From positions 248,001 through 312,000 of the forward strand of contig NZ_QMKK01000022.1 in assembly GCF_003287875.1 (NCBI RefSeq): 64,000 bases of DNA. The letters are read 5' to 3'. How positions within the stretch are numbered: position 1 is the stretch's first letter; each line of letters begins with the position of its first letter. This document shows positions 18,499-21,814 of the stretch, piece by piece. The translations under genes and the position numbers were made by a program. The notes under the pieces are model-generated. The model saw only the letters and a list, made by a program, of their open reading frames with translations. It was not told the origin of the DNA and did not search any database. This DNA is from Martinezella tropici. GTDB lineage: Bacteria > Pseudomonadota > Alphaproteobacteria > Rhizobiales > Rhizobiaceae.

Positions 18499-18924
18499 AT
18501 GAGGCTTTCGCTCTCCCTCGCAGCGCTTCTCCTTCTTCTGCCTCAAGGCGCATCGAGCGAGGAAGCTCCGCAGGAGGCGACGCCCATCATCGGACACGTC
18601 GTGACCGGAAAACAGCTAGACGAATGGTGCGAAGAGGATCGCACGCTCGCTTCGGTCTATATTCAGGGCATTCTCGACGAAGCGCAGCGGACGAAAAACC
18701 TGACAATCCGTGCCACCAAGCAGACGCCGAAGAACTCGTCCCGCTACGAGCGCTATCTTCAGCAATTTGTCGGCGCCTTCTGCCTGCCGCCCGATCTCAG
18801 CAACACAAAGGCAACCGCGATCGCCTGCAAGTGGATGGCGGAACACTCATGGCAGCTCGAACGCCCCGCCAGTTCGCTGATCGCACGTTCCTACAAATTC
18901 GCCTTTCCATGCCTTGAGGAATAG
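18499..18924 (+). CDS. Rap1a/Tai-like small secreted protein
   Basis: A 141-residue protein with a signal peptide (LSLAALLLLLPQGASSEE) and a mature domain whose pattern matches the Rap1a/Tai family: TGKQLDEWC, YIQGILDEA, FCLPPDLS and a terminal IARSYKFAFPC. Members are known as immunity proteins against type VI amidase effectors (Tai) or resistance-associated proteins (Rap1a), but many rhizobial members stand alone, as here; no type VI effector is nearby. Three conserved cysteines may form disulfides in the periplasm. The gene follows the 27-residue peptide frame by eight bases. Confidence 0.6.
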   Translation: MRLSLSLAALLLLLPQGASSEEAPQEATPIIGHVVTGKQLDEWCEEDRTLASVYIQGILDEAQRTKNLTIRATKQTPKNSSRYERYLQQFVGAFCLPPDLSNTKATAIACKWMAEHSWQLERPASSLIARSYKFAFPCLEE

Positions 18925-19056
18925 GCATTCACAGTCCCTGCGGCTTCAACTCCCATAAGCAATTGAATCTTCCAAAATCCCGCCCCAGCATGAAGACCCG
19001 TGGAACAATGCCTTTGCTTGGCCCACGTCACCGAGGCACGCAACATCTCATTCCTG
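18925..19056. other. Spacer before the small-RNA candidate
   Basis: Short stretch between the Rap1a/Tai-like gene and the promoter at 19057. No gene or hairpin recognised. Confidence 0.4.
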
Positions 19057-19084
19057 TTGACAATTAGTAAGTAAAACTTATAAT
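19057..19084 (+). promoter_or_regulatory. Near-consensus sigma-70 promoter
   Basis: TTGACA (19057-19062) and TATAAT (19079-19084), both perfect hexamers, are separated by 16 bases. Transcription would start near 19091. No protein gene begins within the next 200 bases, but a terminator lies about 60 bases downstream. Confidence 0.7.
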
Positions 19085-19090
19085 TAGGAC

Positions 19091-19165
19091 GCTGAATTTG
19101 ATTGACCTCTAGTCCAGCGAAAGGCGGCCCAGTTTTTTCCCTAGACTGGACCGCTTTTGCTTTTC
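19091..19165 (+). ncRNA. Candidate small RNA (about 75 nt)
   Basis: The interval runs from the predicted start of a near-consensus promoter to the T run of an intrinsic terminator. The terminator stem is GCGGCCCAGT (19124-19133) against ACTGGACCGC (19145-19154), nine of ten pairs, followed by TTTTGCTTTT. The 5' part (about 19091-19115) is unpaired and contains GACCTCT, which could pair with ribosome-binding sites. No known RNA family was recognised. The alternative is that the terminator belongs to the upstream Rap1a/Tai-like gene and the promoter match is chance. Confidence 0.55.
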
Positions 19166-19300
19166 CGGACGTGACGATCGCCGCAACACCCAGCTGCGCC
19201 TCACGATATTTCCGCCGCCCGGTCTGCAGAAAGGCCATCTCCCCTGTACCTTAAGCGTCATTTCAGTTTCAAATGCGACGCTGCGGTGGGGGGAATCTCT

Positions 19301-19441
19301 ATGGAATTGCCGAGGTCGCCGTGGTCTACGCTGACGTCGTGCGAGCGCAACAAGCTCGCTCGGCTGGTCATGAAGATGCTGCTGCCAATCTTCGCAGCTC
19401 TGACGCTGCTTGGCGTCGCGTTGCTTATCCTGACGACATAA
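19301..19441 (+). CDS. Candidate 46-residue membrane protein
   Basis: A small frame beginning MELPRSPWSTLTSCERNKLA and ending in one membrane segment (LLPIFAALTLLGVALLILTT). GGGG lies seven bases before the ATG. The pattern of a basic amphipathic N-terminus plus C-terminal membrane helix is what real small proteins look like, but no family was recognised. It is isolated between the small-RNA candidate and tRNA-Cys. Confidence 0.45.
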   Translation: MELPRSPWSTLTSCERNKLARLVMKMLLPIFAALTLLGVALLILTT

Positions 19442-19643
19442 TGCGAACAGGTTGCCACTGACACGCACAGCAATCCAAAACGGTGGTGTGGATAACCATG
19501 CCCGCCGAACGAACGGCAAATGGATCGGTTTCAGCCACCACATGCTTTAGAAATCGAACAGAACATTTTTCAAAAATTGCCTCTTGCGGTTTTCTTTGGA
19601 TCATTCTAAATCCGCGCCACCACAACGCAAATTGTTTCCGGAT

Positions 19644-19717
19644 GGCCTCGTGGCGGAGTGGTTACGCAGAGGACTGCAAATCCTTGCACCCCGGTTCGAT
19701 TCCGGGCGAGGCCTCCA
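19644..19717 (+). tRNA. tRNA-Cys (GCA)
   Basis: A 74-base cloverleaf: acceptor GGCCTCG pairs with CGAGGCC, the anticodon loop CTGCAAA gives anticodon GCA, the T loop is GGTTCGATTCC, and the CCA end is encoded (19715-19717). Confidence 0.97.
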
Positions 19718-20438
19718 TTCTCCCCTTTATATCGGTAGGCAGTGGAATTCGGGGCGTCTTTTTGAAGACGCGGCCATTGGCTGACGCTTTGCCTTCTTTG
19801 ACCTGGGGCCATAGCCGGAACGGTCCGCTCACTTTCGGGTGAGCCCTTAGCCAGAGGCGCCAGTCCATTCAGGTAGGTTATAGGTACCTGCGGTAGATGC
19901 TAAAATCAGCGCTACCGGTTTGGACGCCACCCCCGAGCCGGACAGTGCCGCGTCCGACGAGAATACGCCCCCAAAGTAATGTCGTCGGACGCACCACAGC
20001 CAAGCCGGCTCGGAAAACGCCCTTTCCCCGATTTCTTTCCTGGAGAATCATTTCCGCAACCGCGGTTCAAAGCCTTAAATTTGTAGGAGGGCGTAGTGAT
20101 TGCTCATAGTCGATCGACCAGAAGCGGTGGGTGGCATAACTATGATCATATGACGGCAGCCCTCTTCTCTATATCGGCCGCTCGCATATTCCTTTCACCC
20201 ACCAACTCCAGCCGTTTCCACGCTATAAAAGCGGATGTCGTGCTGACGATATCGAAAGCGGCCGTGGTCGGTCCCGATTAACGAATTGCGTCATTTTTGC
20301 AACAACGTCCATTTTCAAGTAGTGCGCATATAGTTCGTAACTCTTAGTATCTTGCCAAATCAGCGAAGCAGGTTCACGAAATAGTTCGCGAAGCTTATTA
20401 CTTCGCACCTACTGAATAGGGAACATGAACGGGATGGG
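19718..20438. other. Long non-coding interval before ropA, with nested inverted repeats
   Basis: About 720 bases without a convincing protein gene. It contains a hairpin GCGTCTT/AAGACGC (19754-19771), a repeat CGGTAG/CTACCG (19891-19917), and the nested repeat block listed separately. A 61-codon GTG-start frame at 20096-20281 has a strong TAGGAGG site, but its sequence resembles nothing and is not called. Confidence 0.4.
19933..20013. repeat. Nested inverted-repeat block (possible structured RNA)
   Basis: An outer 9-base perfect repeat (CCGAGCCGG at 19933-19941 with CCGGCTCGG at 20005-20013) encloses an inner 11-base perfect repeat (GCGTCCGACGA at 19950-19960 with TCGTCGGACGC at 19982-19992) around a 21-base loop. 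Twenty stem pairs without mismatch is well beyond chance for this span. It may be part of a non-coding RNA, a long leader, or a small palindromic element. Confidence 0.6.
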
Positions 20439-20498: not shown

Positions 20499-21605
20499 AT
20501 GAACATCAAGAGCCTTCTTCTCGGCTCCGCTGCTGCGCTCGCGGCAGTTTCCGGTGCTCACGCGGCCGACGCCATCGTCGCCGCTGAGCCGGAGCCGCTG
20601 GAATACGTCCGCATCTGCGACGCTTACGGTGCTGGCTACTTCTTCATTCCGGGCACGGAAACCTGCCTCAAGATCGGCGGCAAGGTTCGTACCGAAGGTG
20701 AATGGTACAATGCTTACAACCGTGACAGCCACCAGGGCACGCTCTGGCACACGCGCGCCGAGCTGAACGTCGACACCGCGACCGACACCGAATACGGTCC
20801 GCTGAAGACCGAAACCATCGTTCGTTGGGACTGGAACGACGGCGGCTCCACCTCCACCAACCTGCTATGGTCCTACATCAGCCTCGGCGGCTTCACCGTT
20901 GGTAAGAAGGACTCGCAGTACAACCTGTACATCGGTTACGCCGGCGACGTCATCAACGACGACGTGATCTATGACGGCCCATACGAACTCAACCAGTTGA
21001 CCTACGAATATGATGCGGGCAACGGCTTCTCGGCAGTGATCTCGCTTGAAGATTCCAACTCCGCCACGACCGGTTCGGCATCCTACGGCGCAAGCTGGTG
21101 GACGGACGACCGGACCAACCACTACGCTCCCGACGTCGTTGCCGGTGCCGGCTTCAAGTCCGGTGCATGGGGCTTCAAGGTTGTCGGCGGTTATGACTCG
21201 ATCGTCGAAGAAGGCGCCATCAAGGCTCGCGTCGATGCCGATTTCGGCGCATTCACGGCCTTCTTGATGGGCGGCTGGAACACCGACGGCGACAAGCTCA
21301 ACAAGTATGCCGGCACGAACCAGGACGTCTCCGCTTGCACGGCGCCGAACGGCACCGTCAATGCCTCTAAGTGCGGCTGGGGTGACTGGGCCGTTTGGGG
21401 CGGCGTCGGCGTTCCGTTCAACGACAAGCTGAAGTGGAACCTGCAGCTTGCCTACAGCGACTCGAAGATCTTCGAAGCAACCACGAACCTGAAGTTCAAT
21501 CCGGTCAAGAATCTCCTGGTCGAGCCGGAAGTGACTTACGTTCACTATGACTATGCCCACGACGACACCGTTTCGGGCATCCTGCGCTTCGAACGCAACT
21601 TCTGA
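20499..21605 (+). CDS. ropA: Outer-membrane porin RopA
   Basis: General porin of the alphaproteobacterial porin-2 family, the major outer-membrane protein of rhizobia. The 368-residue precursor has a signal peptide ending AVSGAHAADA, the family N-terminus EYVRICDAYGAGYFFIPGTE followed by CLKIGGKVR, many alternating barrel strands (TEGEWYNA, HTRAELNVDT), and a terminal strand closing with RFERNF, ending in Phe as barrels require. It has its own leader and strong terminator. Rhizobia usually carry several paralogues; which one this is cannot be told here. Confidence 0.93.
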   Translation: MNIKSLLLGSAAALAAVSGAHAADAIVAAEPEPLEYVRICDAYGAGYFFIPGTETCLKIGGKVRTEGEWYNAYNRDSHQGTLWHTRAELNVDTATDTEYGPLKTETIVRWDWNDGGSTSTNLLWSYISLGGFTVGKKDSQYNLYIGYAGDVINDDVIYDGPYELNQLTYEYDAGNGFSAVISLEDSNSATTGSASYGASWWTDDRTNHYAPDVVAGAGFKSGAWGFKVVGGYDSIVEEGAIKARVDADFGAFTAFLMGGWNTDGDKLNKYAGTNQDVSACTAPNGTVNASKCGWGDWAVWGGVGVPFNDKLKWNLQLAYSDSKIFEATTNLKFNPVKNLLVEPEVTYVHYDYAHDDTVSGILRFERNF

Positions 21606-21639
21606 CCTGATCAGACTTGACCTCCGATCAGAGAAGGAA

Positions 21640-21671
21640 GGGGTCCGGCTTTCCCTGCCGGCCCCCTTTTT
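21640..21671 (+). terminator. Terminator after ropA
   Basis: GGGGTCCGGC and GCCGGCCCCC form a strong stem followed by TTTTT, 35 bases beyond the ropA stop. Confidence 0.9.
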
Positions 21672-21814
21672 GACGGCAACTCCTGGAAATTGCAGAGCCA
21701 TCCTGCGATCAGCACGCGTGTCACAAGGCTTCCGATCAACCGGAGAAGGGAACCTTGTCGTCACCGTGGCGTTTTTCGCTGAAAGGGACGTGGCTGAATA
21801 TAGGAGTTACCGCC

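Follow-up and report, generated by a model that had tools for sequence, protein, structure and literature searches.

The window, by which we mean the whole stretch of DNA analysed (64,000 nucleotides), carries between a gene for a small secreted-looking protein and a porin gene a short element that resembles a free-standing small RNA (sRNA) gene (Table 1). The upstream protein has a Rap1a domain, and the Rap1a family takes its name from type VI secretion immunity proteins. The initial annotation had proposed a novel sRNA here on the strength of TTGACA and TATAAT boxes with 16-base spacing, and both boxes are indeed read at the positions given in Table 1. It held such a perfect pair to be rare in alphaproteobacteria. 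This pair is the only one in the 64-kb window with a spacer of 15-19 nucleotides, and none of 100 dinucleotide shuffles contained any. The spacer and the -10 box are overlapped by an inverted repeat that may serve as an operator. Covariance model R1 was built from six copies of the 72-nt transcript and R2, a joint model, from 24 copies (classes A and B, and porin tails); the window copy is a member of both training sets.

Table 1. Features of the locus, in window positions.
Feature	Position	Strand	Details
Small secreted-looking protein, Rap1a domain	18499-18924	+	Upstream of the sRNA, same strand; Pfam PF18602
Promoter	19057-19084	+	-35 TTGACA 19057-19062, 16-nt spacer, -10 TATAAT 19079-19084
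Putative operator	19068-19087	+	Inverted repeat TAAG-N5-CTTA (19068-19080) plus ATTAG (19083-19087)
Predicted sRNA, class A	19091-19165	+	About 75 nt; R1 and R2 match 19090-19161
5' hairpin GCTG...CAGC	19091-19118	+	Predicted; alternative GATTG-ACCTC-TAGTC, 19100-19114
Loop 1 GATTGACCTC	19100-19109	+	Predicted seed for porin Shine-Dalgarno region
Intrinsic terminator	19120-19164	+	Arms 19120-19133 and 19145-19158, tail TTTTGCTTTT
Terminator loop 2 core TTTCCCT	19136-19142	+	Within the intrinsic terminator
Porin gene (Porin_2, RopA type)	20499-21605	+	Pfam PF02530, 277 bits
Porin 3' UTR module copy	21604-21673	+	Loop 1 ACTTGACCTCC, terminator loop TTTCCCT

The terminator was described as a nine-of-ten-pair stem followed by a tail, which is what we find: GCGGCCCAGT and ACTGGACCGC (19124-19133 and 19145-19154) pair at nine of ten positions, AAAG and TTTT could extend the stem, and TTTTGCTTTT follows directly 3' at 19155-19164. 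Its distance from the promoter had been overestimated, with about 40 nucleotides measured between TATAAT and the stem instead of some 60. An automated terminator scan of the window did not include 19120-19164 among its calls, probably because its rule, in our own reading, allows no internal C-A mismatch. The folding z-score was -4.8 for positions 19088-19166, a value equalled by none of 200 shuffles, and -4.2 for 19091-19166 (1 of 200), the start at 19091 being deduced from the position of the -10 box and the onset of strict conservation. The terminator is the same in the R1-fitted alignment and in the de novo fold; the pairing of the 5' hairpin is uncertain, because the two predictions disagree there (the de novo fold gives GAUUG-ACCUC-CAAUC). 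The motif GACCTCT, formerly assigned to a single-stranded 5' part, would instead be held in this weak predicted hairpin.

A protein-coding origin finds little room in this structure. A TTG-started frame of 50 amino acids does run across the predicted sRNA, but a short peptide gene is hardly credible, as single-base indels in four copies (L032, L035, L036, L040) break any frame and the conservation sits in RNA stems and loops; no conserved ORF was found among the sRNA copies, in line with the earlier view that nothing protein-coding fits here. Rhizobial alpha-r sRNAs are represented in Rfam. At the gathering threshold, Rfam searches of the whole window, of eight class A/B loci and of seven further loci (porin-tail, D, E and A types) returned just tRNA and terC, and at E <= 5 the positions 18900-19720 of the window gave the tRNA and one weak match on its opposite strand. 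No Rfam family matched the element in the sequences scanned.

The element was matched by blastn in 6 of 61 genomes, its own genome (6.95 Mb) counted; this search missed diverged classes, which the covariance models recovered. At E <= 0.001, R1 matched 41 of 148 same-genus genomes, and class A, set at 80 bits or more, is present in 25 of the 148. When named genomes were scanned by pattern, class A turned up in 19 stretches, each from Rhizobium or a "Rhizobiales bacterium", with R. tropici, R. lusitanum, R. multihospitium, R. hainanense, R. rhizogenes, R. dioscoreae and isolates without species name among them. In a plasmid collection, the 20 records listed of 21 matched by blastn the tRNA-Cys part of the query alone, and not the element. 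Across the 25 class A copies, majority identity rose from 0.42 in the upstream flank to 0.78 over the promoter and 0.94 over the transcript, and fell to 0.45 in the downstream flank, so that conservation goes beyond the terminator and covers the promoter and the whole transcript, while the flanks have diverged. Three genomes (G006, G020, G021) have the class A copy in synteny with the window, between the Rap1a-like gene and the tRNA-Cys and porin genes; in G010 and G004 it occupies other genomic sites.

The promoter is conserved in a regular manner. TTGACA is present in 25 of 25 class A, 8 of 8 class B and 15 of 15 distinct class E copies, always 34 nt ahead of the GCT of the transcript; the -10 box of class A is TATAAT in 16 of 25 copies, with near variants in the remainder, and the operator half-sites stand at a fixed offset in 25/25, 8/8 and 14/15 copies, respectively, around a variable centre. 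The constancy of TTGACA and of its spacing in all the A, B and E copies examined suggests that the promoter of class A is kept by selection. It was conceivable that the stem merely ends the mRNA of the Rap1a-like gene, which lies upstream on the same strand, the hexamers being due to chance. Such an explanation is very improbable and already contradicted, because the promoter distance is constant in every class, two copies stand at other sites, and the 5' loop is conserved as well as the stem. Copies at other sites in G010 and G004 also mean that class A is more than a tail of the upstream gene. Judged from its conservation, 19091-19165 is almost certainly a real sRNA gene of one group within Rhizobium, and the proposal of a novel sRNA with its own promoter and terminator appears to be borne out.

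The free copies belong to three classes, A, B and E, under one promoter type containing TAAG-N5-CTTA. In class B (8 copies read), the promoter, repeat and loops are as in class A, and the terminator stem is different, with compensating changes. Class E, which was found by searching for the repeat, is composed of TTGACA, the repeat, then GCTTCAGTCAGATTTGACCCCTGACC and a terminator; when up to three mismatches are allowed, 26 of 148 genomes contain it, with none for the reversed control, and classes A and E are found together in 24 genomes. Covariation was evaluated on two alignments. In the R1-fitted alignment of 24 copies (A, B and porin tails), 92.6% of cells pair, both-side changes occur in 15 of 22 pairs, and 85 double-change cells were counted vs 25.5 in shuffles, figures that lean towards the structure because of the fit to R1. 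For 15 A and B copies aligned by MAFFT with no such fitting, there were 30 double-change cells vs 14.7, all in the terminator and reached in none of 500 shuffles; in the same alignment, neither the number of double-change pairs (reached in 63 of 500 shuffles) nor the number of pair types (331 of 500) was unusual. Compensatory changes distinguish the terminator stems of classes A and B, and the gene has an intrinsic terminator with a covarying stem, as expected of trans-encoded sRNA genes.

The initial annotation recognised neither that the same module also forms porin 3' UTRs nor that sister sRNAs exist. The two-hairpin module (loop 1 GAUUGACCUC, terminator loop UUUCCCU) stands 3' of porin genes, including the porin gene of the window, whose tail scores 20.9 bits with R1 (E 0.0059) and 52.7 bits with R2, being itself outside the alignment used to build R2. 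That alignment was fitted to R1 because MAFFT, applied across all classes, put loop 2 of the porin tails in the wrong place. R1 matches of 42-30 bits are of two kinds, class B and porin tails; two of the lowest R1 matches in the genus (L054, L056) are without either loop motif and look like chance. In most porin tails read, the protein ends in RFER-x-F-stop and is directly followed by a hairpin such as CTGATC-AGATTGACCTCC-GATCAG, and the terminator loop is TTTCCCT or TTCCCT; in two D-type copies, 84 and 113 nt separate the porin stop from the hairpin. Loop 1 hardly varies in classes A and B or in those porin 3' UTRs that were read. Class A is very probably homologous to the porin 3' UTR module, as judged from these common loops and model scores.

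R2 matched 146 of the 148 genus genomes, most of these matches not being individually read. In the own genome, eight matches were obtained at E <= 0.0053, six after porin genes and two free with TTGACA promoters. Ten porin C-termini were located there by a Porin_2 search, and six carry the module according to the model; by eye, it looks degenerate in the tails of C30:46111 and C10, and no module was seen in those of C11 and C42. Outside the genus, in a family sample of 297 genomes, at least 14 genomes had R2 matches at E <= 0.01, comprising four convincing porin tails (G273, G344, G402, G462), one doubtful (G251) and nine that are not, and these counts are lower bounds, 16 candidates having been scored per genome. 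From the presence of R2 matches in 146 of 148 genus genomes and of four porin tails beyond the genus, we infer that the module is more widespread as a porin tail than as a free gene. G010 has a porin followed by its tail module (35.6 bits) and then by a free class A gene, whose promoter begins about 430 nt past the porin stop; this arrangement may illustrate how a free copy originated.

The loops of the free genes point to putative targets among the porins themselves. In the own genome, the leader of porin C30:46111 ends in GGAGGTCAAT-ATG, the complement of the A/B loop 1: copies with CCTCC pair at 10 of 10 positions, and the window copy forms nine Watson-Crick pairs and one G.U. The A/B loop is therefore complementary to a porin translation start region, as in the MicF/MicC type of regulation. 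The next porin in tandem, C30:47616, bears at -94, away from the start codon, the sequence TCAGGGGTCAA, which is complementary to the class E loop over 11 nt. Duplex energies were computed for nine own porin leaders, that of C16 not being located and that of C55 being cut at the contig end. The best duplex of class A loop 1 was with C30:46111 (-18.7 kcal/mol, vs -16.4 for the next porin and -15.8 for the best among 49 window genes), a value matched by none of the 49 genes and by 3 of 1000 shuffled loops. Class E loop 1 reached -22.2 with C30:47616 (vs -14.9 for the next porin and -16.5 for the best among the 49 genes), a value equalled by none of the 49 genes and by 44 of 1000 shuffled loops, so that the loop control is modest in this case. 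With the porin of the window itself, loop 1 is predicted to pair weakly (-8.5). It may be added that the region C30:46032-48704 (L077, L074) contains tandem porin leaders complementary to different free sRNA classes.

The predicted targets follow the distribution of the sRNA classes, with the reservation, for all these counts, that the patterns were picked after the own porin leaders had been read. A porin-type start with GGAGGTYAA, which in every case reads GGAGGTCAAT, occurs at 72 places in 70 of the 148 genomes, against none for the reversed control. It is found in 25 of 25 class A and 8 of 8 class B genomes (33/33), vs 37 of 115 others, among which there may be further class B genomes since this class was recognised solely among the R1 matches read. 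The porin leader CAGGGGTCAA occurs in 38 of 148 genomes, namely in 25 of 26 class E genomes (G095 is without it) vs 13 of 122 others. As the genomes are related, these co-occurrence counts are not independent and Fisher values computed from them are overstated. Three class A genomes have a loop mismatched to the conserved target, G094 and G097 with GATTAACCTC and G006 with GAGTGACCTC, which are also the exceptions to loop 1 conservation in this class. Pairing of loop 2 as a second site was considered and is not supported, its energies with AGGGAA in porin leaders being within the controls (equalled by 242 of 1000 shuffles and 4 of 49 genes); of the 72 matches, 31 target leaders were read, and all 31 contain AGGGAA.

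Shine-Dalgarno sequences are G-rich, and partial complementarity to a CCUC loop is for that reason easily had. The pattern GGAGGTCAAN{0,8}ATG was indeed not enriched in the own genome (6 sites vs 4 for the reversed control), and four of these six sites are neither porin starts nor located antisense to porin tails. Non-porin mRNAs might then be regulated by the free and 3' UTR copies through an anti-Shine-Dalgarno loop, in line with the anti-Shine-Dalgarno seeds of other sRNAs of this bacterial group, such as AbcR1, in the sections of PMC6234868 that concern them. This seems quite improbable to us, since the best duplex among the sets tested is with a porin and all 33 A/B genomes retain the porin target. 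By complementarity, porin mRNAs are probably the main targets.

We thus favor, with a probability of roughly 60%, a reading in which trans-acting sRNAs, controlled by an operator and related to the 3' UTRs of porins, repress porin paralogues through base pairing with their mRNAs. The sequences display a conserved gene, a promoter, an inverted repeat, a terminator structure, a location after porins and the complementarity; from these we infer that the gene is transcribed, that the 3' UTR copies are processed, that the RNAs pair inside the cell, that the outcome is repression and that there is a regulator. From a mechanistic point of view, 19091-19165 would be a trans-acting small RNA under a sigma-70-type promoter and an operator, and its 5' loop AUUGACCUC would block the translation of a porin paralogue by pairing at the Shine-Dalgarno region of the latter, GGAGGUCAAU-AUG. 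Its class E sister, with loop UUGACCCCUGA and the same promoter type, would pair with UCAGGGGUCAA in the leader of the porin next to it. Copies in porin 3' UTRs may be released and act likewise, in which case the expression of one porin would cross-repress its paralogues. As the module is common to the sRNA and to porin tails, these bacteria probably turn particular porins down, a prediction made from sequence.

Alternatively, the free sRNA may be a decoy that copies the porin 3' UTR and titrates an RNase, an RNA-binding protein or another sRNA acting on the tails. The conservation of both loops, and not of loop 1 alone, between free A/B copies and porin tails agrees with this, as does the parallel of the SmelB053 family and cold-shock gene 3' UTRs, for which the relevant part of PMC3927594 proposes an interceptor role. 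A decoy would leave unexplained why the class A and class E versions of loop 1 fit the leaders of two distinct porins that are neighbours, and we regard it as rather unlikely. Repression of porin paralogues, the reading we favor, has functional precedents. Among the porin-repressing sRNAs of enterobacteria, MicC and MicF are encoded beside porin genes; MicC pairs with the ompC 5' UTR and adjoins ompN (PMC5745476); as with MicC/MicF, a free-standing sRNA near a porin gene is complementary to the 5' region of a paralogous porin mRNA, a likeness of function by description that implies no relation of sequence. The present case differs in that the module is also a porin 3' UTR and that at least three sister classes stand under one inverted repeat. 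The porin tails recall FadZ, a 3' UTR-derived sRNA that represses OmpD and OmpC (PMC10703908), and OppZ/CarZ, 3' UTR-derived sRNAs with autoregulation, OppZ acting on its own gene (PMC7398697). These likewise place in an mRNA tail a module able to act on porin mRNAs or on its own gene; the free rhizobial copies differ by having their own promoters, and release from porin tails is only putative here.

Among rhizobia, the nearest published arrangement that we found in the sources covered is that of SmelB053 in Rhizobiales, where a free sRNA family and cold-shock gene 3' UTRs have common stem-loops (PMC3927594, relevant sections), with GGAUGUA as loop motif and cold-shock genes instead of GAUUGACCUC/UUUCCCU and porins. 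NfeR1 (alpha-r14) of Sinorhizobium meliloti, as described in PMC10746234, is also a rhizobial trans-sRNA with a regulated sigma-70 promoter; its signature is a different one (CTTAGAC-N17-CTATAT, with an upstream LsrB box), and the sequences scanned here match no Rfam family. PmaR of Agrobacterium, an sRNA with a C-rich loop, is set apart by its other targets in the description available. The family presented here would work most like MicC/MicF, its porin tails recall FadZ/OppZ, and it is filed under none of them and in no Rfam family. No published report of the module family was found in the mostly open-access literature searched; the family is absent from the porin and UTR parts of PMC3927594, PMC2881028, PMC2873474 and PMC2573895, and from the UTR and sRNA parts of PMC6011978. 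A single porin mRNA of Salmonella is the target of a dozen sRNAs (PMC10703908), and no rhizobial counterpart was found in the portion of the literature searched.

The inverted repeat extends beyond the sRNA genes. Among the matches listed, 18 repeat sites were fetched, 13 exact and five with one mismatch (L204-L208), the latter chosen for their resemblance to the own C35 copy or for the look of a further class: nine are class E genes (5 exact, 4 one-mismatch), eight, all exact, lie about 100 nt before an ORF starting MSIIHAL[SG]ANSGRL, and one is an E-like unit on the other strand. One-mismatch matches carry no weight in themselves, because among the matches listed they are as frequent as in the reversed control. 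At least eight loci (L196-L203) thus have TAAG-N5-CTTA-NN-ATTAG ahead of a penicillin-binding-protein-like gene, with no TTGACA box visible by eye at these sites. At one of them (L201), the ORF contains the Pfam domains Transpeptidase and PBP_dimer, and a search of this ORF against NCBIfam returned no model at cut-off. CenR was considered as the regulator and set aside, its site, AGTCAC-N6-GTGACT in the part of the literature consulted, not fitting TAAG-N5-CTTA.

Porins control the entry of antibiotics, metals and plant compounds into Gram-negative cells. A module common to porin tails and free sRNAs would, if confirmed, be a case of sRNA genes arising from, or exchanging parts with, mRNA 3' ends, and would offer a route, open to testing, by which an envelope signal could influence porin choice in root-nodule bacteria. 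More speculatively, and with clear doubt on our side, Rhizobium may possess an RNA cross-talk in which modules in the tails of many porin mRNAs can silence other porins and have been copied into A, B and E genes controlled by a stress operator and matched to different leaders, this operator being shared with the penicillin-binding-protein gene; the wall and the permeability of the outer membrane would then be set together.

Minor observations concern the surroundings of these genes. A diverged E-like unit with the repeat (L208, 931-1002, minus strand; 26.2 bits), located in a class B genome, perhaps represents a further class. A tRNA-Pro lies within about 1.2 kb in four of five class B loci scanned (L041-L043, L045), and a tRNA-Cys is often near class A copies. 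The latter (19545-19810 in the window) is inverted in G006 and G020, at L008 7486-7750 and L009 7470-7609, between collinear neighbours, which points to a small local inversion.
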